64,000 bases of DNA from the NCBI RefSeq assembly GCF_004354985.1, contig NZ_SMSK01000001.1, positions 992,001-1,056,000 of the forward strand. Reading direction: 5' to 3'. The stretch's first letter is position 1; every line of letters starts with the position of its first letter. The translations under genes and the position numbers were made by a program. Below, piece by piece: positions 13,019 through 47,478 of this stretch. Source of the DNA: Segetibacter sp. 3557_3 (GTDB lineage: Bacteria > Bacteroidota > Bacteroidia > Chitinophagales > Chitinophagaceae). The notes under the pieces are model-generated. The model ran no database searches and was not told where the DNA came from. It worked only from the letters and a program-made list of their open reading frames with translations.

Positions 13019-13079
13019 GTTTTTTGTGGACCCGGCTGAAGTATAACAATTTAGCCCCGGTTGCGTCGCACTCTTGTAC
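13019..13079 (-). repeat. Interspersed intergenic repeat, copy B
   Basis: Minus-strand copy. It reads GTACAAGAGTGCGACGC from 13079, reaches GGGTCC at position 52, and ends ACAAAAAAC. The first 23 bases differ from the 47478 copy at none and from the 10276 copy at about two positions. It lies in the gap between the CBS and DoxX genes, which otherwise shows no gene. Confidence 0.78.
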
Positions 13080-21290: not shown

Positions 21291-21596
21291 TTTGAATTGG
21301 AACTTCAAAATTAATTATTTATCGGTTTTCAGGTAGCGATAAAACGATCGCTATGTGATGATTATCAGCGATTAAACCACCGGCTGTAAAGCTTTGGAAC
21401 TTTATGATACAAATCATATTATTCGAATCAAATATAAATCGCACACCCAGGTATATACCAATTTAATAGCAACAGAAATCTTCAAAAAAGGAACCCGCGA
21501 GAGCTCCGCAAACTTTTGAATACAAAGTCGCGGCTACAATTTGATGGTGTTTGTTTTACCTGAATTCAGGCTGGTATGCCGAATAGCATTGTTGCG

Positions 21597-21657
21597 GTAC
21601 AAGTGAGTGACACAACCAAAGCCACACCTGGCTTCTACCGCTGGTGCCATAAAAAAC
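21597..21657 (+). repeat. Interspersed intergenic repeat, copy D
   Basis: Begins GTACAAGTGAGTGACAC, reaches GGTGCC at the same 52-nt distance as copies A-C, and ends ATAAAAAAC. Immediately upstream it also shares AATAGCATT (21571-21579) with the copy at 29965. It sits in a 575-nt gap downstream of the ABC exporter gene; apart from this repeat and the DUF3276 promoter I see nothing in that gap. Confidence 0.75.
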
Positions 21658-29934: not shown

Positions 29935-30077
29935 GTTGGTCATGGCTCAATAGCATTACTGAAAGTACAAGTGAGTGACACCCGTCCGAACTGGTTCATC
30001 CGGGCGGACAACCAAAGATCAGCGAGGTACGCATGCTGGTCCCCAAAAAAGCATTGCAAAGAAATTACCCGTTTGTT
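29935..30077 (+). repeat. Interspersed repeat, copy E (long form with hairpin insert)
   Basis: Core GTACAAGTGAGTGACAC starts at 29965. At 29982-30007 a hairpin is inserted: CCGTCCG, 12-nt loop, CGGGCGG, pairing with one G.U. The core then resumes with AACCAAAGATCA, AGGTAC, ATGCTGGTCCCC and an A-run. Blocks upstream (GTTGGTCAT..AATAGCRTTAC from 29935) and downstream (GAAATTACCCGTTTGTT, 30061-30077) are shared with the copy at 58116. Confidence 0.75.
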
Positions 30078-30128
30078 ATCCGAAGCAGGTTGGGTTCGTT
30101 GAAATACCTCTTAGCTGTAGGGGGGATG

Positions 30129-32210
30129 TTATTCTTTCTTTTTGCGTTTTGATTTCTCCCGTGTTCCTGCTTTTGGTTTTGCCGGTACCCCCGTGCGCTC
30201 CCTGCCCCTTGGCTTACTTATGCTTTCAGGTGCCTGCCGCTCATCCTGGTCAAGACCTGCTTTTATCACCCATTCAAAATCAAGCTGGCGCTTCGTTAGG
30301 TTCGCAGCCACCACCCGTATTGTAACACGATCGCCCATTCTAAACTTTCTGCCGCTTCGCCTTCCAACCAGTGCGTAGTCGCCTTCCACCAACCTGAAGT
30401 CGTCGTAATCGATGAGGCTGGTAACGGTAACTAGTCCCTCACATTTGTGTTCAACCGTTTCCACCCAAAATCCAAACCCTGCAACCCCGCTAACTACCCC
30501 CTCAAACTCTTCCCCGAGGTGATCTTTAAGAAATTCAACCTGCTTGTACTTATTTCCTGCACGCTCTGCATCCATGGCATTTCGTTCCTGCTCGCTGCAA
30601 TGTTTATTTTTCTCCTCCATCTTTTTATCGATGACGGGCTTCTTTTGCAGAACCGACTCAAGTACCCGGTGAACGAGTATATCGGGATAGCGCCTGATGG
30701 GCGAAGTGAAGTGGCAGTAATTTTCGAAGCCGAGACCATAGTGGCCGATGTTTTCGGTGGTGTAAAAAGCTTTGGCCATTGTTCTTATGCCCAGTTGTTC
30801 CAGCACATGTTGCTCTGGCTTTCCCTTAACCGCTTCAAGCATTGCGTTGAAACTCGACGCAATGTTCTCGGGCGAGGATATATCGAAACGATGTCCAAAC
30901 TTGGTGGCAAATGCAATGAAAGGCGCAAGCTTTTGTTCGTCGGGCCTGTCGTGAACCCGATAAGAAAATGGAATATCTTTCTGACGTACCTTAACCTTAG
31001 ATACTGTTTCTGCAACAGCTTTATTTGCAAGCAACATAAACTCTTCAATAAGCTGGTGCGATTCTTTGCTTTCTTTTACAACGATACCAACGGGCTTTCC
31101 TTTCTCGTCTAATTTAAACCGCACTTCGGTTGAAGAAAAGTTTATTGCACCCTTTCTAAAACGCTCCGACCTTAGGGTTTGTGCAATGGTGTTCAAAAGC
31201 AAAACATCATTTTCATGTGGACCTTGCTTCGTTTCAATAATCTGCTGCACGTCTTCATAAGTAAACCGGTGATTGCTATGTATCACGGTTCTGCCCAACC
31301 ACTGGCGACTAATCTCGCCCTTTGTATTCATCTCGAAAACTGCGGAAAAGGTAAGTTTGTCTTCATGTGGCCGTAACGAACATAACTCGTTTGAAATGCG
31401 CTCGGGCAACATTGGGTTTACCCGATCAGGCAAATACACTGAGGTAGCCCGGTGATAACCTTCCTTGTCGAGCTCTGTTTCGGGAACCACGAAATGACTT
31501 ACATCGGCAATGTGTACCCCGATTTCGTATAGATCATCAGTAAGTTTTTTTATTGACAATGCATCATCGAAATCGCGTGCATCAACCGGGTCGATGGTAA
31601 AAGTAAGCACGTCTCTAAAGTCCTTTCTCTTACTGATTTCGTCTTCGCCGATAATGTCGGGCAACCTTTCGGCTTCTTCAAGTACCTCGTCAGGAAACTC
31701 CAGCGGAAAACCATTCTCCGCTAAAATTTCTTTCATGGCGATGTTACTTTCGTCCTCCGCATGAATCACCTGCACAACTGTGCCCTCAGGTTTCTTGCTG
31801 CCGTTTTCCCAATTGGTAATCCTGGCAATTACCCGTTCCTTGTTTTTAGCGCCGTTGAGGTTTTCAAGTGGAATATAAAGGTCGGGCATTGGTTTATCGG
31901 TATCGGGAACAAAAAAGGCGTAGTTGGTACTAAGCTGTATGTGCCCAACAAATTCGTTTTGCTTACGGGTCAAAACTTCCACTATTCTCCCTTCTCTTTT
32001 CCCGTTGCGGTCGTTTTCTTTAGTAACCTCAACACGTACCGTATCGCCGTTGAGCGCTGAATTGAAGTTGCCTGGTCTAACCAATATATCGCCGCTGTCA
32101 CCGGGCATGACCACAAAGCCTAAACCACTCCTGGTAATTTCCAGTATACCCTTCGGATCATTCGCGGTGCCAGCCTTACGCCTGGGTTGCTTTTGTTCTT
32201 TCTTGCTCAT
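30129..32210 (-). CDS. rnr: Ribonuclease R
   Basis: 693 residues. Domain order: cold-shock-like OB folds (about 20-180), the RNB catalytic domain (about 205-530) with TIDPVDARDFDDALS supplying the Mg-binding aspartates, S1 domain (about 565-650), and a Lys/Arg-rich tail (KPRGRERTG to KRKKKE). RNase R is a processive 3'-5' exoribonuclease that unwinds structured RNA in mRNA and rRNA decay. Its ATG overlaps the lpxK stop by 4 nt (ATGA), so it is the last gene of the overlapping operon that starts at the DUF3822 gene. Confidence 0.96.
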   Translation of the reverse strand: MSKKEQKQPRRKAGTANDPKGILEITRSGLGFVVMPGDSGDILVRPGNFNSALNGDTVRVEVTKENDRNGKREGRIVEVLTRKQNEFVGHIQLSTNYAFFVPDTDKPMPDLYIPLENLNGAKNKERVIARITNWENGSKKPEGTVVQVIHAEDESNIAMKEILAENGFPLEFPDEVLEEAERLPDIIGEDEISKRKDFRDVLTFTIDPVDARDFDDALSIKKLTDDLYEIGVHIADVSHFVVPETELDKEGYHRATSVYLPDRVNPMLPERISNELCSLRPHEDKLTFSAVFEMNTKGEISRQWLGRTVIHSNHRFTYEDVQQIIETKQGPHENDVLLLNTIAQTLRSERFRKGAINFSSTEVRFKLDEKGKPVGIVVKESKESHQLIEEFMLLANKAVAETVSKVKVRQKDIPFSYRVHDRPDEQKLAPFIAFATKFGHRFDISSPENIASSFNAMLEAVKGKPEQHVLEQLGIRTMAKAFYTTENIGHYGLGFENYCHFTSPIRRYPDILVHRVLESVLQKKPVIDKKMEEKNKHCSEQERNAMDAERAGNKYKQVEFLKDHLGEEFEGVVSGVAGFGFWVETVEHKCEGLVTVTSLIDYDDFRLVEGDYALVGRRSGRKFRMGDRVTIRVVAANLTKRQLDFEWVIKAGLDQDERQAPESISKPRGRERTGVPAKPKAGTREKSKRKKKE

Positions 32211-33292
32211 GGTGTTTTTGATTGCGTATGAAAATTATTGATAAAGGCCTTAACCAGATTATTGAACCGCTCCCCTTCATTAAAAAGGAATTGATGACGT
32301 ACAGGCAAAACATATACCGGAAGGTGGGTAAGCTGTTGCTGAAACTTCATTAATCGTACACCATCTTTTTCCGTGGTTAAAATAAACTTGTCCGTCGACT
32401 GGATTTGCCGGTACTTATGCTCTATTTCCTTTAGATCATCTATTGTAAAAATATGGTGGTCGGCAAACAACAGTTCGGAATATGTTTTTGCCTGCTCCCC
32501 AAGGTGATTCTTTAACGGCCGCGGGTTGGCAATTCCGCAAAACAGCACCACTTCATCATTATGGGTTATGCGTCGTTCTTCGCGGGTGATTACATGATAT
32601 GGCGTTTCATATTCCATGCTGGTGAAAAAGATATGCTGATCTTTTAATGGTTTGATTTCGTCGCGGATAACCTTTTTTTCACCTTCCGTGAGTGTTGGCG
32701 GACATTTGGTGACGATGATAACCTGTGCCCGCTTGTAAGATTGACGCTGATCCCTGAGGTCGCCTGTTGGCAGGAAAAAATCGCGGGTAAACAGGTTTGA
32801 ACAATCGGTAAGCAATATATTAAACCCCGCCTGCACACTTCTATGCTGAAATGCGTCATCTAAAATGATCACCTCGGTATCAGGACGATCATGCAGCAAC
32901 TGTGGTATGGCAACAATCCTTTCCTCCCCTACTGCTACAGCTACTTCGGGAAACTTATAGTGAAACTGCATAGGCTCGTCGCCTATCTCCAACGCTGTAG
33001 TTGACTCATGGGCGAGGGCGTAACCCCTGGTTTTTCTTTTGTAGCCCCTGCTGAGTGTTGCAACTTTATAGTCGGTCCTGAGCAGCCGCAGCAAGTACTC
33101 GACTGTTGGCGTTTTACCGGTGCCCCCTGTTGAAAGGTTACCGACACATATAACCGGCATATTAAAGCGGGCCGATTTAAAGAATTGTTTGTTGAATAAG
33201 AAATTGCGGGTTATTACAATCAGGCCATAAATCAGAGAAAAGGGGAAAAGTAGAATCCTGAATGACTTCAGCAGGTAAAAATTAAAATTCAT
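32207..33292 (-). CDS. lpxK: Tetraacyldisaccharide 4'-kinase
   Basis: 361 residues. It phosphorylates the 4' position of the lipid A precursor at the inner membrane, so this is a Gram-negative envelope gene. Seen: N-terminal membrane helix (about 8-30), GNLSTGGTGKTP as Walker A (about 52-63), LSRGYKRKTRGY, IGDEPMQ, IILDDAFQHRSV, and FCGIANPRPLKNHL. It overlaps the 5-formyl-THF cyclo-ligase gene by 11 nt upstream and rnr by 4 nt downstream, so translation is probably coupled. Confidence 0.95.
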   Translation of the reverse strand: MNFNFYLLKSFRILLFPFSLIYGLIVITRNFLFNKQFFKSARFNMPVICVGNLSTGGTGKTPTVEYLLRLLRTDYKVATLSRGYKRKTRGYALAHESTTALEIGDEPMQFHYKFPEVAVAVGEERIVAIPQLLHDRPDTEVIILDDAFQHRSVQAGFNILLTDCSNLFTRDFFLPTGDLRDQRQSYKRAQVIIVTKCPPTLTEGEKKVIRDEIKPLKDQHIFFTSMEYETPYHVITREERRITHNDEVVLFCGIANPRPLKNHLGEQAKTYSELLFADHHIFTIDDLKEIEHKYRQIQSTDKFILTTEKDGVRLMKFQQQLTHLPVYVLPVRHQFLFNEGERFNNLVKAFINNFHTQSKTP

Positions 33293-33851
33293 ACAATCTC
33301 TGTGGCGTGATACAGTAATTTAAAGGTACATCAAATTGATTGCGGTCATCGATTTTATCTATTGCTTCGAAATAGGAAAACCCGACCTTATTTACCTCGG
33401 GGCTGCATCGCATCAGGAAGCGATCATAAAACCCTTTTCCATATCCAACACGATAGCCTTCTGCATCAAAGGCCAGTAATGGAACAAACACCATGTCAAT
33501 GTCGTGGGGATCAACAGCAACAGCATTTTCCGGCTCCGCAATGTTGTACTCGTTCAGCTTAAATGTAGTGTCGTCATTAACTTCAAATGCCGTCATTTCA
33601 GCTGTATCCGGGTTGATTACGGGGTAGCACACACGCAATCCGGGTATCAGGTATTCGAGATAGCGTACAAATAAATGCGTGTTCATTTCACCACGCTCTT
33701 CTATGGGCCAATAGCTCAGCACCGTTGTAACCGTGTCAAAGGCCAGTCGCTGAAACCATATCAGCATCAGGTCATCCATCTTCATCCGCTCGGGTGAAGA
33801 CAGTGAGAACCGCTTAGCTTTATAAAGGTTACGAACTTCTTTTTTTGTCAT
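33282..33851 (-). CDS. 5-formyltetrahydrofolate cyclo-ligase
   Basis: 189 residues from ATG 33851. An in-frame TTG two codons upstream is less likely. It converts 5-formyl-THF to methenyl-THF using ATP. The family signature GYRVGYGKGFYDRFL is near the C-terminus, with FVPLLAFD just before it, and the N-terminal basic KKEVRNLYKAKRFSL matches the ATP-site lysines. It starts 14 nt after bioD and overlaps lpxK, placing folate recycling inside a mixed-function operon. Confidence 0.94.
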   Translation of the reverse strand: MTKKEVRNLYKAKRFSLSSPERMKMDDLMLIWFQRLAFDTVTTVLSYWPIEERGEMNTHLFVRYLEYLIPGLRVCYPVINPDTAEMTAFEVNDDTTFKLNEYNIAEPENAVAVDPHDIDMVFVPLLAFDAEGYRVGYGKGFYDRFLMRCSPEVNKVGFSYFEAIDKIDDRNQFDVPLNYCITPQRLYEF

Positions 33852-33864
33852 GTACAATTGGTCT

Positions 33865-34536
33865 CTACCGGTTTGGTTTCTTTGCGGGATCCTGTTGCAA
33901 TGATCTTTCTAATTGCGGCTTTAGCTTTTCGGCATGTTCTGAAATGAATGCTTTATCAATGGTCTGCGTAAAGGGAATGCGTCCCAGCGAAGGATAGCCC
34001 GACCATTTAACAATGTCTTCCTCATATCCCATTACTTCATCATTAAATACCCAGCCAAGAATGTTGAGATTTCGTTGACGGCAGAGTTGAGCGGTAAGCA
34101 GGGAGTGATTGATACTTCCAAGGTAATTTCTGCTTACAATGATCACTCTTGCATCAAGCTTGGCAATCAGGTCAGCCACAAACTCTTTTTCATTCAGTGG
34201 CACCATCAGGCCACCTGCACCTTCAATCACGAGGTGAGGGTTAACACTCGACAGGTGCCGGAAGGAACGTTCTAATACAGAGAGGTCAATACGTACATTG
34301 TCTTTTTCCGCAGCCAGGTGTGGAGAACTGCGCATGGATAGTTTGTAAAATTCGTGGTGCACCTTTGAAATCCCGTTGCTTACAAGGTTACCTACGGTTA
34401 CACTGTCAAAATCATCTCCAAAACCAGCCTGGATAGGTTTCCAATAATCAGCCTGGAGGGCTTCCGAAACCGCTGCCGCCACCAGGGTTTTACCTACACT
34501 TGTGCCAATGCCGGTGACAAAAATAGGTTTGTTCAT
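33865..34536 (-). CDS. bioD: ATP-dependent dethiobiotin synthetase
   Basis: 223 residues. It closes the ureido ring of biotin from diaminopelargonic acid, CO2 and ATP. Seen: P-loop TGIGTSVGKTLVAAA (9-23), the KPIQAGF substrate strand, IEGAGGLMVPLNE, and the C-terminal IPFTQTID. Lengths match the family. The start codon overlaps the rsmD stop by 4 nt. No other bio genes lie in the window, so biotin synthesis is scattered or incomplete here. Confidence 0.95.
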   Translation of the reverse strand: MNKPIFVTGIGTSVGKTLVAAAVSEALQADYWKPIQAGFGDDFDSVTVGNLVSNGISKVHHEFYKLSMRSSPHLAAEKDNVRIDLSVLERSFRHLSSVNPHLVIEGAGGLMVPLNEKEFVADLIAKLDARVIIVSRNYLGSINHSLLTAQLCRQRNLNILGWVFNDEVMGYEEDIVKWSGYPSLGRIPFTQTIDKAFISEHAEKLKPQLERSLQQDPAKKPNR

Positions 34537-35075
34537 TCCTTGTTTTTGAAAAAGGAGAAAATAGTCGTGCCATAGTTCCGCTGGAAATCAAACCCATCAA
34601 AATTGGTATACTCGTTTCTTGGCGTATGCTCCAACACGAAAATACCAGCGGGCGAAAGCAATTGTTTTTGCATGATCACTTTCGGCAATTCATCAATGCT
34701 GCCAAGTGCATATGGCGGACCGGCAAAAATAAAATCAAACTTTTCTGTACAGGTAGACAGGTAGGAAAACACATCGAGCCTGATCACTTTGAAAGTTTCG
34801 ATTGCAAGTATAGCGGCGGTCTTCTTTATAAAGTCGTACATCGCGGTATCCTTCTCAATTATCGTAAGGTCTGTTGCGCCTCTTGATGCCAGTTCGTAGC
34901 TGATGCTTCCTGTTCCACCAAAAAGGTCAAGTGTTTTCAAGCCCTCAAAATCTATCCGGCTGTTAAGTATGTTAAAGAGACCTTCTTTTGCAATGTCGGT
35001 TGTTGGCCGGGTGTTGGGCATGTTCGCCGGCGGGTTTATCTTTCTTCCGCCAAGGGTACCTGAGATTATTCTCAT
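34533..35075 (-). CDS. rsmD: 16S rRNA (guanine-966 N2)-methyltransferase, RsmD family
   Basis: 180 residues. A Rossmann SAM-dependent methyltransferase that modifies the small-subunit rRNA. Seen: MRIISGTLGGRKI, the TRPTTDIAKEGLFNIL substrate region, SAM motif LDLFGGTGSISYELASRG, and motif IV. Motif IV reads AGPPY where the consensus is (D/N)PP(Y/F), so the usual acidic or amide residue is replaced by Gly. Its ATG overlaps the DUF3822 stop and its own stop overlaps bioD, both by 4 nt. Confidence 0.93.
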   Translation of the reverse strand: MRIISGTLGGRKINPPANMPNTRPTTDIAKEGLFNILNSRIDFEGLKTLDLFGGTGSISYELASRGATDLTIIEKDTAMYDFIKKTAAILAIETFKVIRLDVFSYLSTCTEKFDFIFAGPPYALGSIDELPKVIMQKQLLSPAGIFVLEHTPRNEYTNFDGFDFQRNYGTTIFSFFKNKE

Positions 35076-35914
35076 AGGGCAAGATTAAAGATGGGCGTAA
35101 AATAATGCATTGGGTATTCACTTGCATCAAGGTGGATCAACCGGCTATCCGCTTCTTCCACAACCACGTTTCTAAAGTACTTTTCTACTTCCTTATAAAG
35201 CGGCGAGTTCAAATCGATCATTCCACTGATCTCCAGTTTTAGCGTTTGTACATCGGCATTCACCAGCTCCGTTATATTCAGCAGGTAGTACAATACATCA
35301 GCAGGCACCTGGTACTGGTAAGATTGCACCAATTTGAGTACCCCGTTAGAAGCAACGGCAACAATAAAGTGATTACCGTAAAACTGAACCTTGAAAACAG
35401 CATTCGAAGCTGGCAGGTCATTCGGGAAACTGCGTATAATCTGGCTATAGGTATGATGAATTTCTATTTCACCTAGTGTTTCCGGAAAGTCGTTCTCGCT
35501 TGAATTTGGCAGGCTGTAAACGTTAACGATACCGCCAAATGTGTCAACGTGTTCGTGCCGGACGATAACATTACCCTGGGGCTGGCTGGTTGCGGTTAGG
35601 TAATCAGCAGCTTTATTCTTATTAAACAATGGTGCAGGCACCAGCACACTTCGGGCATTCTGAACAAAGACCTTAGTTTTTACATATCGCTCCTGCAAAA
35701 TTTTTGAATGCGGAAGAATGTCGGCGAGCACCCCTCTTAAAAACTTGGTAGATTTCGCAATCTTAAACAATTCGAAGGAAGCGATGGTCCTGCTTTTTGA
35801 ACTTTTAACCTGGCAGGCGATATGAGTGTCTGCAATTTCAAGAATCAGCTGGTCATCGTCATAAACTTCACCCGGTGATTGTGGACTGTATATACTAAAA
35901 ATCTTGTTGGCCAT
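35072..35914 (-). CDS. DUF3822 family protein
   Basis: About 280 residues from ATG 35914 (MANKIFSIYSPQSPGEVY); the frame extends 18 codons further but that part looks untranslated. DUF3822 is a Bacteroidota family, usually next to rsmD as here, with an ASKHA-like (actin/hexokinase) beta-alpha layout suggested by alternating strands and helices. No catalytic motif is certain. It opens the overlapping operon; the 4-nt overlap with rsmD implies tight co-expression, perhaps a role in ribosome or coenzyme-A-linked metabolism, which is only inferred from recurrence. Confidence 0.8.
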   Translation of the reverse strand: MANKIFSIYSPQSPGEVYDDDQLILEIADTHIACQVKSSKSRTIASFELFKIAKSTKFLRGVLADILPHSKILQERYVKTKVFVQNARSVLVPAPLFNKNKAADYLTATSQPQGNVIVRHEHVDTFGGIVNVYSLPNSSENDFPETLGEIEIHHTYSQIIRSFPNDLPASNAVFKVQFYGNHFIVAVASNGVLKLVQSYQYQVPADVLYYLLNITELVNADVQTLKLEISGMIDLNSPLYKEVEKYFRNVVVEEADSRLIHLDASEYPMHYFTPIFNLAL

Positions 35915-36204
35915 CTGCTTTCTATTGCGGTGCAAGTATACCAAAAAATTAGCTGGTAGCGGCGCCAAAGCACTTGCGGCCGAATTTGAACCGGGCTATT
36001 TGTAGTGGCGCGAATAAAAGAAAAATCGGAACACTAGTCGTGCGGGCAAATGCAAACAGAGGAACCTTATTGTAGATTGGTTTGCTGATGGTGAAGGATT
36101 GGCTAAAGCAAAGTTTCGTCTGCTAATTTTTTACCGGTTAGCAATACAACCCTCATCAACCCTGCCAGGAGAGAGCGTAATGCACAGCGAAAAGAGGACG
36201 ATAG

Positions 36205-36957
36205 CTATTGCATTTCCTCCAGCAGCTTTTTGCCAGCTGCTTTGTACCCGGCATCATCAGGGGTACGATTGGGTAACCGAACGAGTTTATTAAGCACCTC
36301 GATTGCCTTTGCCGGTTTGTTGTCGTGTTTATAAGCCTTTGCCAACTCCAGGTAATTGACTACAAAGTACTGATCAACGCTCCGGGCTTTTTCCATGTAC
36401 TTGATTGCATCTTCGATAGTTGCATCCGGCATACCGCCGAAAAATGTTTTTACCGCAACACGTTTAACCCATGATAGCTGTACCATTTCGAAATGCCACT
36501 TGCCCAACGAAAAGTTCGCCCTTGCATGATTGGGGTTTAGTGCAACAGCTTTTGCAGCATACACCTGGATGTTTTTTACATTTTCAATGATCTTTTTGTT
36601 CTCGGTTTCCGTTTCAGTAAGTCTTGCGGCCACCATCGACATCACATAGTTTGCATCGGCATTATTAGGGTCAATCGCGAGCGCCTTATCAACATATTGC
36701 CTTGCAGCGTCTACAAAAGGTTTCTTTGCTTTTTTATCTGCTTGCCGCGCCCCAATCGAAGCAGATAATTCCGCCGCCTTGATGAGTGCATTGATGTTGT
36801 TAGCGTCAGCACCTACAGCCTGCTTGTATTTTTCAAGTGCCTCAGCGACTTTCAGTGACCTTTCAAAATTTTCACCTTCTTTCAATAGCACATTTACGTC
36901 CTGTGCAAAACACATTGGAGCCAAAAGCAACAGATAGATTAATACGGAAAATCTCAT
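36205..36957 (-). CDS. Periplasmic tetratricopeptide-repeat protein
   Basis: 250 residues from ATG 36957, with signal peptide MRFSVLIYLLLLAPMCFAQ. The mature part is a chain of TPR-like helices: ALEKYKQAVGADANNINALI, YVDKALAIDPNNADANYVM, AKAVALNPNHARANFSLG and a C-terminal AYKHDNKPAKAIEVLNKL. The family resembles Bacteroidota TPR proteins with a regulator-of-microtubule-dynamics-like fold, function unknown. It begins 1 nt after the folB stop, so it is translationally coupled to folB, an odd pairing of a folate enzyme and an exported scaffold. Confidence 0.85.
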   Translation of the reverse strand: MRFSVLIYLLLLAPMCFAQDVNVLLKEGENFERSLKVAEALEKYKQAVGADANNINALIKAAELSASIGARQADKKAKKPFVDAARQYVDKALAIDPNNADANYVMSMVAARLTETETENKKIIENVKNIQVYAAKAVALNPNHARANFSLGKWHFEMVQLSWVKRVAVKTFFGGMPDATIEDAIKYMEKARSVDQYFVVNYLELAKAYKHDNKPAKAIEVLNKLVRLPNRTPDDAGYKAAGKKLLEEMQ

Positions 36958-36958
36958 T

Positions 36959-37318
36959 TTAGTCGTTTCTTTTTTTCTGGTAAGTAATGCCAACAGTTCC
37001 GACAAACGAAGCAATTGGAGGCTGCAATTTTGTGATCGATATTTCAACTTCCCTGATTAACGAAAATTGTTCCAAAAAAACATCCGCAATTTCCATGGCT
37101 ATTGTTTCTAAAAGAGGCGAAGGCCGGTTCATCCGGTCTTTGATGATTTCATAAAGGGAAACATAGTTGATCGTTTCCTCAAGCTGCCTGATAATTCCCT
37201 GCCTGGGCTTGTACCTCACCAGGGCATTCACTTCAAAATTCCCTCCTGCAATACCTTCCTCTTCGTGTACCCCATGGTAGCTGTAAAAAGCAAGTTTTTT
37301 TAAATGAACGGTGATCAT
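36959..37318 (-). CDS. folB: Dihydroneopterin aldolase
   Basis: 119 residues from ATG 37318. The open frame runs to 37522, but that upstream part overlaps trxB and is rejected. It cleaves dihydroneopterin to the hydroxymethyl pterin used by HppK and FolP. Seen: KLAFYSYHGVHEEEG with the conserved Tyr-His-Gly-Val-E pocket, YVSLYEII, the SPLLETIAMEIAD helix with pterin-binding Glu, and the TKLQPPI strand. It sits downstream of a trxB terminator, so it probably has its own promoter. Confidence 0.93.
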   Translation of the reverse strand: MITVHLKKLAFYSYHGVHEEEGIAGGNFEVNALVRYKPRQGIIRQLEETINYVSLYEIIKDRMNRPSPLLETIAMEIADVFLEQFSLIREVEISITKLQPPIASFVGTVGITYQKKRND

Positions 37319-37324
37319 ATAGGT

Positions 37325-37359
37325 CAAAAATAAGGCGATCATCCCTAAGATGACCGCCT
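37325..37359 (-). terminator. Intrinsic terminator after trxB
   Basis: Minus strand: AGGCGGTCATC, 5-nt loop, GATGATCGCCT, then TTATTTTT. The 11-bp stem is complete with a single G.U pair. It ends the trxB transcript just before folB. Confidence 0.8.
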
Positions 37360-37400
37360 GTAAATAGTTGAGCCTGTTAAATGATTTACAATGATAATGC

Positions 37401-38348
37401 TTAGATGAACCCTTTGATCGCCAGGTAGCGTTCGGCATCAAGTGCAGCCATACAACCTGTACCAGCAGCAGTAATTGCCTGCCGGTAAATTTTGTCTTGT
37501 ACGTCGCCAGCTGCAAATACACCTTCTACATTGGTTTTACTGGTACCGGGTATTGTTTTGAGATAGCCTTCGTCGTCCATATCGAGCCAGCCTTTAAAGA
37601 TATCTGTATTGGGCTGGTGTCCAATTGCAACAAAAAACGCACTCACCGGTATCTCACGCAAGGCTTTGGTTTTGGTATCAATAATCCGGATCGCTTCCAC
37701 TTTCTTCTCGCCCAACACCTCATCTGTTTCAGAGTTCCAATGCACCTCAATGTTGGGTGCTTTAAATACCCGATCCTGCATCACCTTCGATGCGCGCATC
37801 TGGTCTTTGCGCACCAGCATATGTACCTTTGAACACAATTTTGAAAGATAAAGTGCCTCTTCAGCAGCCGTGTCACCCGCACCTACAATGGCCACATCTT
37901 TGCCTTTGAAGAAGAAGCCATCACAAACCGCACATGCACTAACCCCATAACCATTCAGCCGCTGCTCACTCGGGAGGCCAAGCCATTTTGCTGAGGCGCC
38001 GGTACTAACGATAACGGCGTCAGCTTCAATTAACTTGTCGTCATCCACCCATACTTTGTAAGGATGCTCCATGAAATCTACCTTGGTGGCAAGACCGTAC
38101 CGAATATCTGTTCCCATCCGGGCAGCCTGCTTTTCGAAATTGATCATCATCTCCGGACCCTGTATTCCTTCGGGGTAACCGGGATAATTCTCCACCTCAG
38201 TTGTAATGGTAAGTTGTCCGCCAGGTTGAATACCCTGGTATAACACCGGCTTCATATTAGCGCGTGCTGCGTAAATGGCGGCCGTATAACCTGCCGGTCC
38301 CGAACCTATAATCAGACAATGGACTTTTTCTGCTGTATTATTCTCCAT
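37401..38348 (-). CDS. trxB: Thioredoxin-disulfide reductase
   Basis: 315 residues. It transfers electrons from NADPH through FAD to thioredoxin. Seen: FAD motif IIGSGPAGYTAAIYAARA (about 13-30), redox centre CAVCDG (about 143-148), NADPH motif VGAGDTAAEEA (about 161-171), and the C-terminal FAD-binding GVFAAGDVQD. Normal length, single gene bounded by a terminator. It is divergent from nothing nearby; DUF4249 lies upstream on the same strand with 128 nt between. Confidence 0.96.
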   Translation of the reverse strand: MENNTAEKVHCLIIGSGPAGYTAAIYAARANMKPVLYQGIQPGGQLTITTEVENYPGYPEGIQGPEMMINFEKQAARMGTDIRYGLATKVDFMEHPYKVWVDDDKLIEADAVIVSTGASAKWLGLPSEQRLNGYGVSACAVCDGFFFKGKDVAIVGAGDTAAEEALYLSKLCSKVHMLVRKDQMRASKVMQDRVFKAPNIEVHWNSETDEVLGEKKVEAIRIIDTKTKALREIPVSAFFVAIGHQPNTDIFKGWLDMDDEGYLKTIPGTSKTNVEGVFAAGDVQDKIYRQAITAAGTGCMAALDAERYLAIKGFI

Positions 38349-38476
38349 GCTTGTATTTTATATTTTATATATCCCTTGTGTTGCTTTGCTTTACATGCGG
38401 GCTTTGCTATAGCACCAATCGTGGCAATATGCTGCTGTTTTATAAAGCTTGCAGGTAGCGGCCAAACTAGGATCTT

Positions 38477-39352
38477 TTATTTAGGAATGATCACGGTTTT
38501 ATATTGAACGGCATATCCGCAAAATGCGCCCAGTGCGCCGTTGCTAATGTTTCCTACTACCCTTGTTGGGGTTGAAAACGGGTTTCCAACACTTTGATAG
38601 CTGTATTCAAGGCCACGCCAAAACTCAAAACTCACTTTATCAATATTGGCAAACTTAACGGTTGCGGTGTCCCCCCTCCTGAAAAACCCATATTCCTTTT
38701 CATCCAGGGTATCGTTCCTGTTGATACCCCTGTCTACCTGTATCTCGTACGTGGTACCATCAACTATCTGGTCGTCAAATACAGAACTGGCACCCGGAAA
38801 AAACGGATCGCGGTTCACCCTGGTAAAGTACCTGATGTAATTGCCATAACCGGGTGGATCCGTAACCTTAACCATAAGAGTAACCCTTGGTGTATCTTCT
38901 ACCCTTGGGGCTGGCTTCCACCAAAGGCTGTCAATCGTTTTTGCCAGCACCGGTATGGTTGTGCTGGAAGTGTACACCGCCCCGCCAACACGAATATCTA
39001 ACTTGTAAGTCTTGCCCTCCTCTCCTAATAATAAGGGCGCTCCGGCAGGCAAGCCATAATAATAAACAAAATACCCGCTGTCAATCGGCACTTTATATTC
39101 TATCAATGGTTGCGACAAGGTGCCATTCGACACGGTTACAGCCGCGTCATGTACAAATGAACCCTGCAGCATTGCTCTTGTAATAAGGCTAAAAAAGTTC
39201 AGCGAATTGCTAAGTTGAACTATGGGAGGCTGTCCGTTTTCAATCTGGGCTTCCACTACCAGTTTCGCCGGCTGGTTCTCAGGTTGGATCGTGATGCCTT
39301 TTTCGCAAGCCAAAAAAAACACCGCAAGTACAATGACAATGTATGGCTTCAT
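38477..39352 (-). CDS. DUF4249 family lipoprotein
   Basis: 291 residues with signal peptide and lipobox FLAC (Cys16). The early KLVVEAQIENGQPPIVQLS strand and the VTVSNG region match DUF4249, an outer-membrane lipoprotein family often paired with TonB-dependent receptors in Bacteroidota. No receptor gene is adjacent here. A TAATTTTG -7-like box on the minus strand lies only 6-13 nt before the ATG (39365-39358), so the start codon or the promoter assignment may need moving. The gene is divergent from the OmpA-like gene. Confidence 0.82.
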   Translation of the reverse strand: MKPYIVIVLAVFFLACEKGITIQPENQPAKLVVEAQIENGQPPIVQLSNSLNFFSLITRAMLQGSFVHDAAVTVSNGTLSQPLIEYKVPIDSGYFVYYYGLPAGAPLLLGEEGKTYKLDIRVGGAVYTSSTTIPVLAKTIDSLWWKPAPRVEDTPRVTLMVKVTDPPGYGNYIRYFTRVNRDPFFPGASSVFDDQIVDGTTYEIQVDRGINRNDTLDEKEYGFFRRGDTATVKFANIDKVSFEFWRGLEYSYQSVGNPFSTPTRVVGNISNGALGAFCGYAVQYKTVIIPK

Positions 39353-39473
39353 GCCGGCAAAATTAATGGTTCTTAAGTTTGTATTTATGCTCAGGGGTAT
39401 TGCAAATCAACAGCCTGTTTTCATAATCAGTCGTTATGGCACGATAATTACGCATCATCGGAAAAATATTACC

Positions 39474-40325
39474 ATGACCAAAACAACCTTAACAGTTGCA
39501 TTGTTGTTTCTGTTCTCTCTTACCTCCTGTGTTGCTAAAAAGAAATTCCTCCAGGCGCAGGATACCATCAGCGATTTAAGGAGTGATAGTGCCAATAAGG
39601 CTACCCGAATCAACAAATACGAGCAAGACGTGCTTGGTTTGGAAACAAACATCAGGAACCTTGAAAGAACCCGGAACGGGCTCCAGCGCCAGGTAGACTC
39701 GATCAATCAACGACTTGACGCGGCTAACCGGGATGCATCCAATAAGCTACAGGACGCTTCGAGTAAACTTACCTTAAGCCAAAAGCAGATTGCGGATCAA
39801 CAACAGCGCCTTGAGCAATTGCAGGAACTAATGGATCAGCAGAAGAAAAACCGTGAGGAACTCCGGAAAAAAATCTCAGATGCGCTGGTGAGTTTCAATT
39901 CCAATGAACTGACGGTAGCTACTAAAAACGGGAAAGTTTATGTAAGCCTGCAGGAAAACCTCTTGTTTCCTTCAGGAAGCGCAGTAGTTAATCAAAAAGG
40001 CACCCAGGCACTGTCGAAACTTGCTGAAGTATTGAATGTCAATCCCGATATCAATATTGAAATTGAAGGTCATACCGACTCAATTCCTATGAAAGGCCGG
40101 TACTCCGACAACTGGGACCTGAGCACGGCCCGTTCTACCGCTATCGTACGGATACTTACCAACAGCTATAAGGTTGATCCGATCAGGGTTAAGGCTGCGG
40201 GACGAAGCAAATACGAGCCGGTCGACGTAAACTCAACAGCTGATGGCAGGGCTAAAAACAGGCGTACAGAAATCATCCTGTCACCCAAACTTGACGAATT
40301 AATGCGCCTTGTTCAATCAGAATAA
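39474..40325 (+). CDS. OmpA-family peptidoglycan-binding lipoprotein
   Basis: 283 residues from ATG 39474; the frame extends upstream over the DUF4249 start and is rejected. Signal peptide and lipobox LTSC (Cys19), a coiled-coil stalk rich in Gln/Asp/Arg (about 28-135), then an OmpA/MotB domain (about 150-270) with the meso-DAP-binding signature IEIEGHTDS and NWDLSTARS ending in NRRTEI. It tethers the outer membrane to peptidoglycan. The transcript ends in a shared terminator before rpoD. Confidence 0.92.
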   Translation: MTKTTLTVALLFLFSLTSCVAKKKFLQAQDTISDLRSDSANKATRINKYEQDVLGLETNIRNLERTRNGLQRQVDSINQRLDAANRDASNKLQDASSKLTLSQKQIADQQQRLEQLQELMDQQKKNREELRKKISDALVSFNSNELTVATKNGKVYVSLQENLLFPSGSAVVNQKGTQALSKLAEVLNVNPDINIEIEGHTDSIPMKGRYSDNWDLSTARSTAIVRILTNSYKVDPIRVKAAGRSKYEPVDVNSTADGRAKNRRTEIILSPKLDELMRLVQSE

Positions 40326-40344
40326 GTAAATAATCAATACAAAT

Positions 40345-40380
40345 AAAAAAACCCCTCATCTTTGGATGAAGGGTTTTTTA
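40345..40380. terminator. Bidirectional terminator, OmpA-like gene / sigma factor
   Basis: An A-run, ACCCCTCATC, TTTG loop, GATGAAGGGT, T-run. There is one mismatch in the stem, with T-tracts on both strands, between two convergent genes. Confidence 0.82.
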
Positions 40381-40396
40381 TTTCAAGTCAATTATA

Positions 40397-41254
40397 CTAT
40401 CCCAGGTAAGCCTTTAGGGCGTTACTATACCGCGCTTTCTGAAGGCGTTTGATTGCACGCTCTTTGATCTGCCGGATACGCTCTTTTGTCAGGTCGTACT
40501 TCTGGCCAATTTGCTCGATTGTTACACCGTTTTCTCCATCCAATCCGAAGTAAGCATTAACGATCTCTGCCTCACGGGGAGACAAAGATTTTAATACACG
40601 ACGTATCTCCTCTCTCAAACTGTCCTTCATTACATCATCATCTGTATCGTCGCCACCTTGTAAAAGGTCACCCATCGCCACATCTTCCGCTTCGTGCACC
40701 GGCGCATCCAATGATGTATGACGGGTGTTGCTTTGAAAGATGTTGTTTATCTCCGTTTCACTCATTTCCAGTATCTCGGATAACTCCTCTGTACTGGGTT
40801 CCCTTTCATGCTCCTGTTCGAAAGCCATATAGGCTTTGTTCGCCTTGTTGTAAGTTCCAATCTTGTTTTGTGGAAGTCTTACCAGGCGACCTTGCTCAGC
40901 TAATGCCTGCAGGATCGATTGGCGGATCCACCAAACTGCATAAGAAATAAATTTGAAACCTTTAGTTTCATCAAAACGCTGGGCTGCTTTGATAAGCCCT
41001 AGATTCCCCTCGTTGATCAAATCGCTTAAAGATAATCCCTGGTGTTGATATTGCTTTGCTACTGAAACCACAAAACGAAGGTTAGCTGTTGTTAACCTTT
41101 CCAGAGCCCGCTGATCCCCCATTTTGATTTTCTGAGCAAGAATAGTTTCTTCTTCAGGGGTAATCATAGGAATTTTGGAGATTTCCTGCAGGTATTTTTC
41201 AACCGCCTGCGAGTCTCTGTTTGTGATCTGAGTGGCAATTTTAAGCTGCCTCAT
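40397..41254 (-). CDS. rpoD: Primary sigma-70 factor (RpoD/SigA)
   Basis: 285 residues, the compact Bacteroidota form lacking region 1.1. Seen: region 1.2 (YLQEISKIPMITPEEE), region 2 with NLRFVVSVAKQYQ, DLINEGNLGLIKAA, and the -10-melting segment FKFISYAVWWIRQSI, region 3, and region 4 helix-turn-helix TIEQIGQKYDLTKERIRQI. It directs most transcription, recognising the TTTG / TAnnTTTG promoters seen in this window. It is transcribed alone from a promoter at about 41359. Confidence 0.95.
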   Translation of the reverse strand: MRQLKIATQITNRDSQAVEKYLQEISKIPMITPEEETILAQKIKMGDQRALERLTTANLRFVVSVAKQYQHQGLSLSDLINEGNLGLIKAAQRFDETKGFKFISYAVWWIRQSILQALAEQGRLVRLPQNKIGTYNKANKAYMAFEQEHEREPSTEELSEILEMSETEINNIFQSNTRHTSLDAPVHEAEDVAMGDLLQGGDDTDDDVMKDSLREEIRRVLKSLSPREAEIVNAYFGLDGENGVTIEQIGQKYDLTKERIRQIKERAIKRLQKARYSNALKAYLG

Positions 41255-41358
41255 AATGTATATGTATTAATGAATAGAAACCGCTAATAAGACACATTTC
41301 CTATCGGGTATGTTGCAAAACTGTGAGCCATTATTATAAAAAAGGAACAAAATGCGTG

Positions 41359-41389
41359 CAAAACTACGTTGGAACATCGGTTTTTAAAA
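41359..41389 (-). promoter_or_regulatory. Predicted sigma-factor gene promoter
   Basis: Minus strand TAGTTTTG at 41366-41359 is an exact TAnnTTTG box. A TTTT tract about 19 nt upstream stands where TTTG is expected. The leader to the ATG at 41254 would be about 100 nt. The rest of the 425-nt gap to the threonine aldolase gene shows no gene. Confidence 0.5.
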
Positions 41390-41679
41390 GGGAAAACCCA
41401 TATATCTACGTGTTTTAGGGTATAATTAACCGAATATTTTAGTATTATTCCGTCCAGCTCCTTATTGTTCATGAACGCACACGTATATTCCGGCGCAAGT
41501 ACACCTGATCTGGTAATAATACGACCGTACTAACACGGGGGACTCATACATGCGGGAATGGATCGCGTAATCAAATAACCATTTACGTTAAAACACTTTC
41601 AAGCCCAATTTTTAAGCCCGAAAAATCGGGGAATTATGCCTCCGGATGTAAGTGCTATTCACGTAAATTCGTGCCCATT

Positions 41680-42693
41680 ATGATTGATTTTCGCTCCGAC
41701 ACTTTCACCAAACCTACACCCGGGATGCTTGAAGCAATGTGCCGGGCCGAAGTAGGAGACGATGTATATGGTGAAGACCCCACCGTAAACAGGCTGGAAA
41801 TATTGTCAGCTGACCTATTTGGAATGGAAGCTGCCATCTTCTGCCCCAGCGGAACAATGACCAACCAGATTGCCATTAAATGCCATACCCAACCCGGGGA
41901 CGAGGTCATCTGTGATAAATTATCCCACATTTATATTTATGAAGGTGGTGGGGTTGCGTTCAATTCGCTAAGTTCCGTTCGGCCGATAGAGGGCGATCGG
42001 GGCCGGATAACTGCAGAGCAGGTTTTAGAAAGTATTAATCCCGACGACATTCATAAGCCTGTAACCAGCCTTGTAAGCCTTGAAAATACCGCAAATCGCG
42101 GCGGAGGAAGTTGTTACGACTTCGAAGAATTCAGAAGGATAAAAGAAGTTTGTCTTGCGCATAAACTGGCGCTTCATCTTGATGGGGCAAGGTTATACAA
42201 CGCAATTGTTGCCGGTAATCAATCGCCCCGTCATTACGGCGAAGTGTTCGATAGTATTTCCGTATGCCTCAGCAAAGGCCTGGGTACACCGGTTGGCAGC
42301 GTGCTCATCGGAACCAATGAACTGGTAAAAAAAGCTCGGCGCTTACGCAAAGTATTTGGTGGTGGAATGCGCCAGGCAGGCTTCCTGGCTGCAGCAGGGA
42401 TCTATGCCCTGGAAAACAATGTGGATCGCCTGGCAGAGGATCATAAACATGCCGCGATGCTTGCTGCGGCACTTGCACAAAAAGATTTCACCGGCGAGAT
42501 CCTGCCCGTAGAAACCAATATCCTCATATTTGAAGTCAAAGGCAGGTTTACTGCCCAGGAGCTTGTGGATAAATTCAGGGAACAGGAAATTGTAACGATA
42601 GCCATTTCAAAAAAACAAGTTCGGATGGTTTTACATTTAGATATTACTTTTGAAATGGTACAAAGAACCATACAGGTGATCAAAAATCTGTAA
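41680..42693 (+). CDS. ltaE: Low-specificity L-threonine aldolase
   Basis: 337 residues from ATG 41680; an in-frame GTG at 41671 is less likely. A pyridoxal-phosphate fold-type I enzyme that cleaves L-threonine or allo-threonine to glycine and acetaldehyde. Seen: MIDFRSDTFTKPTPGM, GDDVYGEDPTV, the HLDGARLYNA strand holding the PLP-aspartate, and SKGLGTPVGSVL with the Schiff-base lysine. It is followed 48 nt later by pgi on the same strand. Confidence 0.93.
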   Translation: MIDFRSDTFTKPTPGMLEAMCRAEVGDDVYGEDPTVNRLEILSADLFGMEAAIFCPSGTMTNQIAIKCHTQPGDEVICDKLSHIYIYEGGGVAFNSLSSVRPIEGDRGRITAEQVLESINPDDIHKPVTSLVSLENTANRGGGSCYDFEEFRRIKEVCLAHKLALHLDGARLYNAIVAGNQSPRHYGEVFDSISVCLSKGLGTPVGSVLIGTNELVKKARRLRKVFGGGMRQAGFLAAAGIYALENNVDRLAEDHKHAAMLAAALAQKDFTGEILPVETNILIFEVKGRFTAQELVDKFREQEIVTIAISKKQVRMVLHLDITFEMVQRTIQVIKNL

Positions 42694-42741
42694 AGTGCGA
42701 ATCGAATATCCGGCAAAAAAAAAAGCTAATAACAAGCAATT

Positions 42742-44397
42742 ATGCTCCCAAAGATCAATCCGACCATTACCCAGGCGTGGCTATTACTTCGCAGGCATTA
42801 CGACGAAGAAATGCAGCGTAACCATCTAAGAAAACTATTCGCGGGAGATGATGACCGTTTTAAAAAGTTCTCACTGTGTTTCGATGACATCTTATTTGAT
42901 TATTCCAAAAACATCATCAATAACAAAACCTTGCAGCTGCTATTGCAATTGGCAGAAGATTGCAAGGTTAAAGACGCTATTGATGCAATGTTTAATGGCG
43001 AGAAGATAAACGAAACAGAAGACAGATCGGTATTGCATGTTGCGTTAAGAAACTTTTCCAATAAACCTTATTTCGCAAACGGCGAAGATGTTATGCCTGC
43101 TATACGGCAGGTGCAACAGCAGATGCGTACGATTTGTGAAAAAGTGCACAGTGGCAATTGGAAGGGTTACACCGGCAAACCTATTCGTTACATCGTAAAC
43201 ATCGGTATTGGCGGGAGTGACCTGGGCCCGGTGATGGTTACTGAAGCACTTAAACCTTATTGGCAACCTAACATCCAGACTTATTTTGTAAGCAACATCG
43301 ATGGCACCCACATCGCTGAAACCCTAAAAAAAGTAAACCCCGAAGAAACGCTTTTCCTGATCGCCAGTAAAACATTTACGACGCAGGAAACCATGACAAA
43401 TGCGCATACCGCACGCAGTTGGTTCCTACACCATGCACATGATGAAGCGCACATTGCCAAACATTTTGCTGCGCTGAGCACCAACCAGGCAGAGGTGGTT
43501 AAATTTGGTATCGCTCCCGAAAACATGTTTGTTTTTTGGGACTGGGTTGGTGGAAGGTATTCGCTTTGGAGTGCAATAGGTCTATCCATAGCGCTTACCA
43601 TTGGTTACGACAACTTTGAAGAACTGCTGAAAGGTGCCCACCAGGTTGACGAGCATTTTGCATCTGAGAAGTTTGCTACAAACATTCCCGTGGTAATGGC
43701 CGTACTGGGCATATGGTACACCAACTTCTTTGGCGCACAAAGCGAAGCGATATTGCCGTATGACCAATACATGAGTCGTTTTGCGGCCTATTTCCAGCAA
43801 GGAAATATGGAGAGTAATGGTAAGAGTGTAGATAGAAACGGTTACGAAGTTAACTATGAAACGGGTCCGGTAATCTGGGGAGAACCCGGAACAAATGGCC
43901 AACATGCCTTCTACCAGCTTATTCACCAGGGAACCCTGGTGATCCCCTGCGACTTTATTGCACCGGCAAGAAGCCATAACCCGATTGGCGATCACCATGC
44001 CAAGCTACTCAGTAACTTTTTTGCGCAAACCGAAGCGTTGATGAATGGCAAAACGGAAGAAGAGGCAAAGAGCGAATTAGAAAGCTCCGGCAAATCAAAA
44101 GAAGAGGTAAAGAAACTACTGCGATTCAAGGTGTTTGAAGGAAATAAACCAACCAACTCTTTTCTTGTAAAACTGATCACGCCTAAAACCCTGGGCAGCC
44201 TGATTGCCATGTACGAACACAAAATTTTTGTACAGGGTATCATATGGAACATATTCAGCTTCGACCAATGGGGTGTTGAGCTTGGCAAACAGTTGGCCAA
44301 CAAAATTCTGCCGGAACTACAAAGCGCCGAACCGGTGACCAATCATGATACGTCGACGAACGGTTTGATAAACACCTATAAACAATGGAAATCCTGA
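42742..44397 (+). CDS. pgi: Glucose-6-phosphate isomerase
   Basis: 551 residues, the long PGI form. It interconverts glucose-6-phosphate and fructose-6-phosphate in glycolysis. Seen: [17 protein letters not shown] (about 152-168), family signature [30 protein letters not shown], and a C-terminal lysine region [11 protein letters not shown]. It ends at a strong terminator. Linkage to threonine aldolase upstream probably reflects a shared transcript without a shared pathway. Confidence 0.97.
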
Positions 44398-44418
44398 TCT
44401 GGGGTACATACCAATATT

Positions 44419-44454
44419 ACAAAAGGTTGCCTTAAACGGCAGCCTTTTGTATTT
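44419..44454 (+). terminator. Intrinsic terminator after pgi
   Basis: ACAAAAGGTTGCC, 6-nt loop, GGCAGCCTTTTGT, then ATTT. The 13-bp stem contains one G.U pair. It begins about 22 nt after the pgi stop. Confidence 0.82.
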
Positions 44455-44526
44455 ATATGGGTGCTGAGTTCGTTGTTCTGCAGTATCGTTTAATTTGCCG
44501 GATAACAGCCGCCCGAAGCACTCAAG

Positions 44527-44600
44527 GTACAAGTGAGTGATACGCGTCCGACTGCGCAGCGGGCGGGCAACAATGACCGGCAATTAACATATACCGCCGA
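44527..44600 (+). repeat. Interspersed repeat, copy F (with hairpin insert)
   Basis: Starts GTACAAGTGAGTGATAC, then a hairpin (CGTCCG, 9-nt loop, CGGGCG at 44545-44565, one G.U) inserted at the same point as in the copy at 29965, then GGCAACAATGACC. Downstream similarity fades, so this copy is partly degenerate. It lies between the convergent pgi and FKBP genes, between their terminators. Confidence 0.65.
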
Positions 44601-44624
44601 CCAAGAAATCACCATTCTGAAGCA

Positions 44625-47417: not shown

Positions 47418-47478
47418 ATTTTTTTGGGACCCTGCTTTTGAACCTACGGGCATCCCCGGTTGCGTCGCACTCTTGTAC
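47418..47478 (-). repeat. Interspersed intergenic repeat, copy C
   Basis: Minus strand: GTACAAGAGTGCGACGC from 47478, GGGTCC at the 52-nt position, CAAAAAAAT at the end, followed by a second GGGTCC. It sits between the convergent ndk and sdaA genes. Its frame is open across the core (IVQECDATG to VPKK), as in the other copies, but no gene is supported. Confidence 0.78.

Follow-up and report, generated by a model that had tools for sequence, protein, structure and literature searches.

The window analysed here, 64,000 nucleotides (nt) of contig NZ_SMSK01000001.1 of Segetibacter sp. 3557_3 (positions 992,001 to 1,056,000, forward strand), contains copies of a short dispersed repeat with a 17-nt core, two of which are interrupted after the core by a GC-rich hairpin. 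This insert is probably a small, non-autonomous palindromic unit, separate from the repeat that houses it and inserted into many existing repeat copies at a preferred junction. The insert occupies a fixed site, filled and empty copies occur together, the same hairpin types recur across core variants, units are arranged in tandem or nested within one another, and the hairpin is absent from the relatives sampled. Positions are window coordinates unless a contig is named, and the genome of the window (6.75 Mb, 35 contigs) is referred to as G000.

The first filled copy spans 29945..30050 (+ strand), with the core GTACAAGTGAGTGACAC at 29965-29981 and an A-run reaching 30050; as its flanks are weakly conserved, these limits are approximate. 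Between GACAC and AAC lies a 28-nt insert, a variant of hairpin type A (CCGTCCGAACTGGTTCATCCGGGCGGAC; 29982..30009, +), after which the sequence continues as AACCAAAGATCA. The second filled copy, at 44507..44609 (+), has a core of the same variant (v1) with GATAC (GTACAAGTGAGTGATAC, 44527-44543), and a 25-nt hairpin of type F (GCGTCCGACTGCGCAGCGGGCGGGC; 44544..44568, +) follows GATAC and precedes AACAATG. Direct reading thus places both hairpins at one site (GACAC^AAC and GATAC^AAC, the caret marking the junction), as an earlier, sequence-only reading of the window had claimed. A third copy, at 58087..58175 (+), is empty, its core GTACAAGGGAGTGACAC at 58116-58132 running directly into AACAAAAGATCA. 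When 29910-30120 is aligned with 58061-58240, 95 of 118 columns outside the hairpin are identical, over a span from GTTGGTCAT upstream to CCCGTTTGTT downstream, and the homologous part includes one large gap, which is the 28-nt hairpin, plus one 1-nt gap. Because the hairpin is the sole large gap, we regard the copies at 29965 and 58116 as filled and empty paralogues, and the suggestion that the short form at 58116 is the empty counterpart of the first copy holds. Two details of that reading need adjustment: the core does resume after the insert, with one base different rather than identically (AACCAAAG at 29965, AACAAAAG at 58116), and the hairpin described as CCGTCCG pairing with CGGGCGG is present, with the register of the predicted fold slightly shifted, such that GTCCG pairs with a final CGGAC or CGGGC.

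Filled and empty forms coexist across the genome. The exact v1 core is present at 134 places in G000 (69 with T and 65 with G, and just 42 more within one mismatch of the T form); of the 131 distinct places fetched, 33 are filled and 98 are empty (29 and 97 by parser, five by eye), and the side-by-side occurrence of insert-plus and insert-minus copies, which the sequence-only reading had proposed to check, is therefore confirmed. With cores at up to three mismatches in all stretches examined, 72 hairpin copies were parsed, 45 of them v1, 24 with the core variant v2 (...GTGCGACGCAAC) and three with a third variant, v3 (GATGAACG...TGCGACGCAA); 121 copies were empty and 13 were left unclassed by the parser. 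The filled share of v2 should not be read as a frequency: many v2 loci were retrieved through their hairpin (27 v2 cores followed by the hairpin).

A search of G000 anchored on the hairpin itself (up to three mismatches) yields 43 matches, against 0 for the reversed pattern. By script, 36 of the 43 lie directly 3' of GACRC, exact or with one base changed, and four lie at a second site in the core, in the opposite orientation; the remaining three are L342, by eye the second site in decayed form, L346, in a decayed copy, and L352, outside any core. At the second site the inverted hairpin follows GTACAAG (L037, L053, L332, L336, L345). The hairpin is also found without an intact core, albeit rarely (L352, L355). 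In addition, there is a local cluster of hairpins outside intact cores on contig C30 of G000 at about 18-67 kb (L352, L355, L336), some lying between GGGGACAAGC and GCAAAAAGG and some forming opposed pairs.

These counts bear on the simplest alternative, also named in the sequence-only reading, that two unrelated GC-rich hairpins happen to align and that the hairpin is absent from the other copies. Folded alone and compared with shuffles of their own bases, the window hairpins are indeed unexceptional (z of -2.0 and -0.5 with RNA parameters, -1.6 and +0.3 with DNA parameters), and their significance lies in their recurrence and not in their fold. The reversed pattern has no match where the hairpin has 43, and a single site of the repeat accounts for 36 of these; the genome-wide counts thus refute chance, which is so improbable that it can be set aside.

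In the sampled relatives only hairpin-minus cores were met. Among v1 copies a hairpin was found in 0/60 from other species of the genus, 0/36 from other genera and 0/20 from viral contigs, and among the v2 copies met in passing the corresponding figures are 0/23, 0/5 and 0/4, v2 copies found with the empty-junction pattern being left out of the v2 counts. The empty form is probably ancestral because no hairpin occurs in these 60 + 36 + 20 copies outside G000, and each filled copy would appear to have arisen by insertion, not by loss. The strict hairpin pattern is present in 1 of 59 genomes. In viral contigs a hairpin pattern has three matches, of which L442 is a plausible unit and two look like chance, and a collection of phage records gave no match to a hairpin-bearing copy.

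Core variants that have diverged from one another share hairpin types at the homologous site. The v1 and v2 cores differ in sequence two bases before the junction, and both must be older than the genus because they are common to other genera. Among 96 units, type A is represented 22 times in v1, seven in v2 and once in v3 copies, type D 4, 10 and 0 times, type E 0, 5 and 3 times, and type F 3, 1 and 0 times; five have a nested unit, and 35, type B included, were left untyped by the script. In 16 v1 and two v2 copies, the unit in first place is the exact 26-nt A unit. As v1 and v2 differ only two bases from the junction, conversion tracts would need to end exactly there. The exact A unit occupies 20 distinct places among the stretches examined, of which 17 were parsed, 12 outside and five inside the miniature inverted-repeat transposable element (MITE) described below. 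The flanks of the 12 have a median identity of 0.41 over 32 nt upstream (highest 0.53; shuffled 0.37) and 0.50 over 48 nt after the insert (highest 0.69; shuffled 0.38), and those of the five in the MITE are identical at 0.86 upstream and 0.93 downstream. The mismatch of flanks is a weak argument alone, because the flanks of empty copies differ equally.

The units also vary in number and arrangement. As parsed, 72 are first, 23 second and one third units, such that copies contain 0, 1, 2 or 3 of them. A 28-nt relative is lodged inside the loop of another hairpin, at GAACGG^AGTTC, which is filled in L063 and uninterrupted in L031 and L040.

Part of the repeat copies are contained in a MITE. There are 37 elements with CAATGTCGTTTACTTAAG (up to three mismatches) and its complement at their ends (18-bp inverted ends), all in G000, and 36 of the 37 include the core by the script's mark. 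Their 10-bp target duplications match on average at 8.32 of 10 positions, versus 5.38 (standard deviation, sd, 0.17) in permuted flanks. One 115-bp element (L400; contig C22 of G000, 304.4-305.0 kb) has the MITE ends and no core, and is possibly a version of the MITE from before, or without, the repeat. We considered the MITE as the origin of the whole repeat and rejected it: among 188 G000 copies, both ends match at 12 or more of 18 positions in 32 and either end in 61 (shuffled 9), leaving the majority of copies at background level. In the sample of other genomes no element of this kind was seen, and a collection of plasmid records gave no match to it. Because most G000 cores are without MITE ends and none with them were seen elsewhere in the sample, the MITE is one carrier of the repeat and does not define it.

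The MITE nevertheless raises the prospect that the hairpin does not move by itself, and was spread by the copying of whole elements, MITE or other, together with recombination and later loss in some copies. The 37 inverted-end elements with their target duplications show that whole elements multiply, and close paralogues (L010, L038) exist among the hairpin carriers that lie outside the MITE. Against this, different core variants share hairpin types while retaining their own bases two positions from the junction, and precise loss without flanking direct repeats is unlikely. No direct repeat of more than 1 nt flanks the insert, and simple slippage is therefore an improbable source of the empty forms. 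Unit number, moreover, is not clustered among similar MITE copies. Of 26 MITE-like copies, 13 have no unit, five have one, five have two and three have a nested unit, and on a tree of 18 MITE copies (91-97% identical to their nearest) unit number needs 10 changes, compared with a mean of 9.4 for shuffled labels, although the tree is poorly resolved, with no well-supported inner branch. Spread by whole-element copying is, in our judgement, an unlikely account of the hairpin. The proposal of the sequence-only reading that the insert is a second, nested element is instead supported by the shared hairpin types in diverged cores, by the tandem and nested units, by similar MITE copies with 0, 1 and 2 units and by the hairpin-minus cores of the sampled relatives.

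The predicted folds of the units are asymmetric between strands. Folds were predicted for 47 different GTCCGA-type units, each 22-28 nt long with C as the last base; the core strand folds better than its complement in 43, with mean energies of -11.1 and -7.5 kcal/mol, respectively, with RNA parameters and -4.6 and -3.5 with DNA parameters. The second base of the stem is T in all 47, and the base opposite is G in 41 and A in six. This strand preference is small in effect and points to a single-strand role; the unit may function in single-stranded form, as a hairpin of the T.G-containing strand, which is predicted to fold better.

The strand preference (43/47) can also be counted for a different reading: the repeat would be, or encode, a structured RNA, with the hairpin as an optional peripheral stem gained and lost under selection on RNA structure. 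Structured RNAs commonly have such optional stems at a fixed site. A covariation scan of 128 v1 and 43 v2 copies adds a weak signal in the 3' part of v1, where the best four-pair stack scores 4.09 and the top score in 20 runs with permuted columns, which covered a slightly smaller region, is 3.39. Taken singly, the flanking arms also have a somewhat more stable fold than their letter-shuffled versions (3' arm, -4.49 versus -3.98, sd 0.18, in v1; -5.07 versus -4.13, sd 0.25, in v2). The v1 signal is, however, confounded by phylogeny and may reflect two subfamilies, v2 has no signal above permuted copies, and the complementarity between the two flanking arms is about that of arms taken from other copies (-9.24 versus -8.92, sd 0.20). 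RNAalifold predicts no structure for 46 hairpin-less copies at default scoring and a four-pair stem with other scoring, and Rfam has no match at gathering score in the window and none at E up to 0.5 in eight loci. Furthermore, the second site holds hairpins in the opposite orientation, and the repeat copies lie in both orientations relative to genes. A structured RNA with an optional stem therefore seems rather unlikely to us. Of the two possibilities left side by side in the sequence-only reading, we favour the nested element over the structural variant of one RNA, for which the weak 3' covariation and the folding of the arms speak and the RNAalifold and Rfam results do not.

In the explanation that we favour, a unit of about 25-31 nt with the core GTCCGA...CGGGCGGGC would enter existing repeat copies at GACRC^AAC in the lineage of G000 and, less often, in inverted orientation at a second junction of that repeat. 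Units already in place would be joined by others beside or within them, giving arrays of one to three and hairpins in hairpin loops. The housing repeat would need its own means of spread, and the MITE would carry repeat and unit around. The system would then comprise three layers: a family-wide dispersed repeat, a tiny palindromic unit in the lineage of G000, and the MITE. The insertions could be made by an enzyme acting in trans on hairpins, or by copying through template switching at the hairpin; template switching at hairpins in replication could yield tandem and nested units enzyme-free, and less easily the same unit in unrelated copies. A stronger version, which we offer tentatively, is that the hairpin is itself mobile, with specificity for site and strand, entering one or two junctions of the repeat and the loops of its own earlier copies; this would be layered transposition of a hairpin in a repeat in a MITE, and the hairpin would be a bacterial counterpart of mitochondrial GC clusters.

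Several observations weigh against an independently inserted unit. No transposition event, excision product or hairpin target duplication was seen among the copies examined, GACRC^AAC being intact in the empty copies, and the insert ends share at most 1 nt. No candidate enzyme emerged, in that genomes of the genus have 0-7 matches each to the HUH Y1 transposase (PF01797), a count that does not vary with their core numbers. Within a unit, the two arms pair only modestly better than they do with arms taken from other units (-11.10 versus -10.63, sd 0.18, with the lowest of 200 permutations also at -11.10). Downstream of the insert, the A carriers outside the MITE have some sequence likeness (0.50 versus 0.38 shuffled, as above), which is expected from the weak consensus of the repeat but also fits partial common descent. 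The core-anchored census of filled copies favours the main site by construction, and the hairpin-anchored search (36/43) is the independent test of it. Finally, a related hairpin is present at the same site in two contigs of other Bacteroidota metagenome-assembled genomes; the hairpin unit is therefore not confined to G000, and a wider sample would enlarge its range.

An HUH-type single-strand nuclease is the natural candidate as mover, yet the evidence does not favour it. G000 has three Y1 matches, one of them with a stop, and the two intact genes, on contig C29 at about 359.2 kb and on contig C3 at about 3.2 kb, adjoin other palindromes. In raw counts across 30 Y1 loci, a v1 core lies in the fetched flanks of two and there are six v2 cores. 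A transposase of the type associated with repetitive extragenic palindromic (REP) sequences (RAYT) was considered as the mover of the core and rejected, as G007 has seven Y1 matches and one core, G001 two weak matches (one with stops) and 701 cores, and G006 no Y1 match and 64 cores. In G000, at L146 (contig C3, about 1.7-5.0 kb), a Y1 transposase gene with palindromes of its own is flanked by two repeat copies with hairpins in head-to-head orientation, one some 0.4 kb ahead of the gene and the other some 0.1 kb past it, and at L136 (contig C29, about 357.7-361.0 kb) a Y1 gene is followed by a long palindrome array around GCCCCGCTGGGGCATG, a different REP-like family.

These genes matter to a further alternative, that the hairpin belongs to the known REP superfamilies, tagged GTAG or CGTC, and is moved by a RAYT-type HUH transposase. 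Its size, its GC-rich palindrome, its intergenic setting and the CGTC letters at its foot would all suit, as would the position of the Y1 gene at L146 and the v2 cores among the Y1 loci. The available part of PMC3733652 describes superfamilies with an unpaired GTAG or CGTC tag at one end, CGTC families with an 8-9 bp stem starting AT and a CCA tail, and a link to RAYT/Y1 in the GTAG families; and REPINs, in the part of PMC3116915 drawn on here, are REP doublets arranged as inverted pairs. Like these, the hairpins are short palindromes, often in many intergenic copies, and the head-to-head core pairs of sister species (below) resemble REP doublets. In contrast to the REPs of PMC3733652 as far as that account goes, the CGTC letters of the hairpin fall inside the predicted stem, with G, T and C paired (GTCCG/CGGGC) and thus no unpaired tag, the stem is GTCCG and does not start AT, and the insert is followed by AAC in nearly all copies, with no CCA tail. 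No consistent association with a RAYT was found either: the fetched flanks of 28 of the 30 Y1 loci have no v1 core, and the intact Y1 genes of G000 stand beside other palindromes. The hairpin is also lodged at a set position within another repeat. We consider membership of a known REP superfamily improbable.

The housing repeat is far more widespread than the hairpin. When up to three mismatches are allowed, the 17-mer core has 236 matches in G000 and the reversed pattern six; with one mismatch at most, the counts are 176 and 0. Core matches occur in 27 of 99 genomes searched, all in the family of G000 (f1), and in 0/39 genomes of other families. Within the genus, v1 counts at up to one mismatch range from 701 in the 4.1-Mb genome of G001 down to one in the sister species G007; G001 also has 351 v2 matches, and the repeat is present in G034, G033, G013 and others. 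The v2 core has exact matches in 37 of the 99 genomes, again in f1 only, and v3 is found at 13 places among the stretches examined, all in this genus. Profiles of hairpin-less copies consist of a near-invariant block GTACAAGKGAGTGACACAAC, weak preferences to about 20 bases upstream, about 25 poorly conserved bases and the A-run; as the copies were selected by their core, its conservation is partly an artefact of selection. The 5' flank and the 3' part of a copy look similar (GAATAG...), and tandem half-sites were considered and rejected, likeness within copies being 5.87 and between copies 5.73 (sd 0.13). Topic searches of an open-access subset of the literature gave no account of the housing repeat; GTGCGACGCAAC searched as text led to one unrelated plant paper, and the core string was also searched as text. 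The repeat is apparently an unnamed family, as far as this subset shows.

Most copies are intergenic by a simple open reading frame call, in both orientations relative to genes. In other genera the end of the A-run lies close to the next gene, with v1 medians of 11 and 47 nt by gene direction, and in G000 the medians are 126 and 130. Head-to-head pairs of copies are present in G001 and several other genera, and 0/86 G000 copies are so paired. Pairs in sister species and other genera (L271, L202, L203, L179, L200) are 16-198 bp apart and often combine v1 with v2, and a long hairpin could form from such v1/v2 pairs. At L243 (G006:C1) an inverted pair of the GTCATTGCGAGGAG...GAAGCAATC type lies between two head-to-head cores, and it would appear to resemble a CGTC-type REP. 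Upstream of ispA, copies in either orientation or paired are found in 6/9 other species of the genus and in none of the other 3/9; the ispA locus adjoins rnr where both were seen, and in G004, G006 and G008, among the six, rnr is not adjacent in the piece examined. The core is also present in contigs of a viral collection (L164-L178), several times shortly 5' of an ATG and, at least in L164, 3' of the stop codon of the preceding open frame; a scan of the viral contigs for the ispA protein gave no match.

In the window, the filled copy at 44507..44609 is located between pgi, which ends at 44397, and a gene for an FKBP-type peptidyl-prolyl isomerase (44677-45675, - strand). A further v1 copy without a hairpin lies at 21577..21656 (+; core at 21597), and three v2 copies (GTACAGGAGTGCGACGCAAC), also without hairpins, lie at 10276..10337 (+; variant core at 10276), 13018..13079 (-; variant core at 13079-13063) and 47418..47478 (-; variant core at 47478-47462). 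The v2 copies at 10276-13079 have 61-nt arms in inverted orientation around a gene for a recF/SMC-type ATPase, a CBS-domain gene and others. A composite transposon was considered for this arrangement and rejected, as no transposase family was recognised in the enclosed open reading frames scanned (three of those listed).

By analogy, the hairpin-bearing repeat is a modular small repeat akin to MITE, REP or BOX-type repeats, and neither the housing repeat nor the hairpin is described in the available parts of the open-access papers on BOX, BrickBuilt, REP, GC clusters and HUH subclass 2.6. The Bacteroidetes HUH TnpA (Y1) proteins of subclass 2.6 have atypical flanking structures, according to the part of PMC6006769 used here; their hosts are of the same phylum, and movement of the hairpin by a single-strand nuclease is one possible mechanism, but no such gene is clearly linked to the hairpin among the Y1 loci examined. 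The GC clusters of yeast mitochondria are short, GC-rich, palindromic mobile units (GC42 is 42 nt long) which merge and shuffle by a mechanism described as unsettled in the portion of PMC4478555 available. They share with our unit its small size, GC-richness and palindromic form, and differ in being organellar with an AG target, whereas the target here is a repeat core of 17-20 nt. If the hairpin does move by itself, it would rank with the smallest of the mobile units that are site-specific, and the many filled and empty sites in one genome would provide a ready-made assay for its movement and a system for finding the enzyme or copying error that moves tiny palindromes, a question that transposase-less REPs and the GC clusters of organelles raise as well.

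Two composite elements of bacteria are nearer in architecture. BrickBuilt of Porphyromonas gingivalis, in the part of PMC4596501 consulted, is a MITE with an internal minisatellite, and it resembles the present system in being a MITE of the Bacteroidota, in its inverted ends and in having an inner repeat that varies; its inner unit is a 23-nt tandem repeat, whereas ours is a palindrome present in repeats with and without MITE ends. The pneumococcal BOX elements consist of outer parts and a variable number of self-folding inner modules, boxA-boxB(n)-boxC, in the excerpted account of PMC3049150. They too are composite, MITE-like intergenic repeats in which a self-folding inner module is present in varying number, or absent, at a fixed place; the inner module here differs in being a GC-rich hairpin of 25-31 nt, nested in its own loop and inverted at a second site, and the likeness is one of architecture, across different phyla. 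With that qualification, BOX elements appear to be the closest in logic to the hairpin-bearing repeat.

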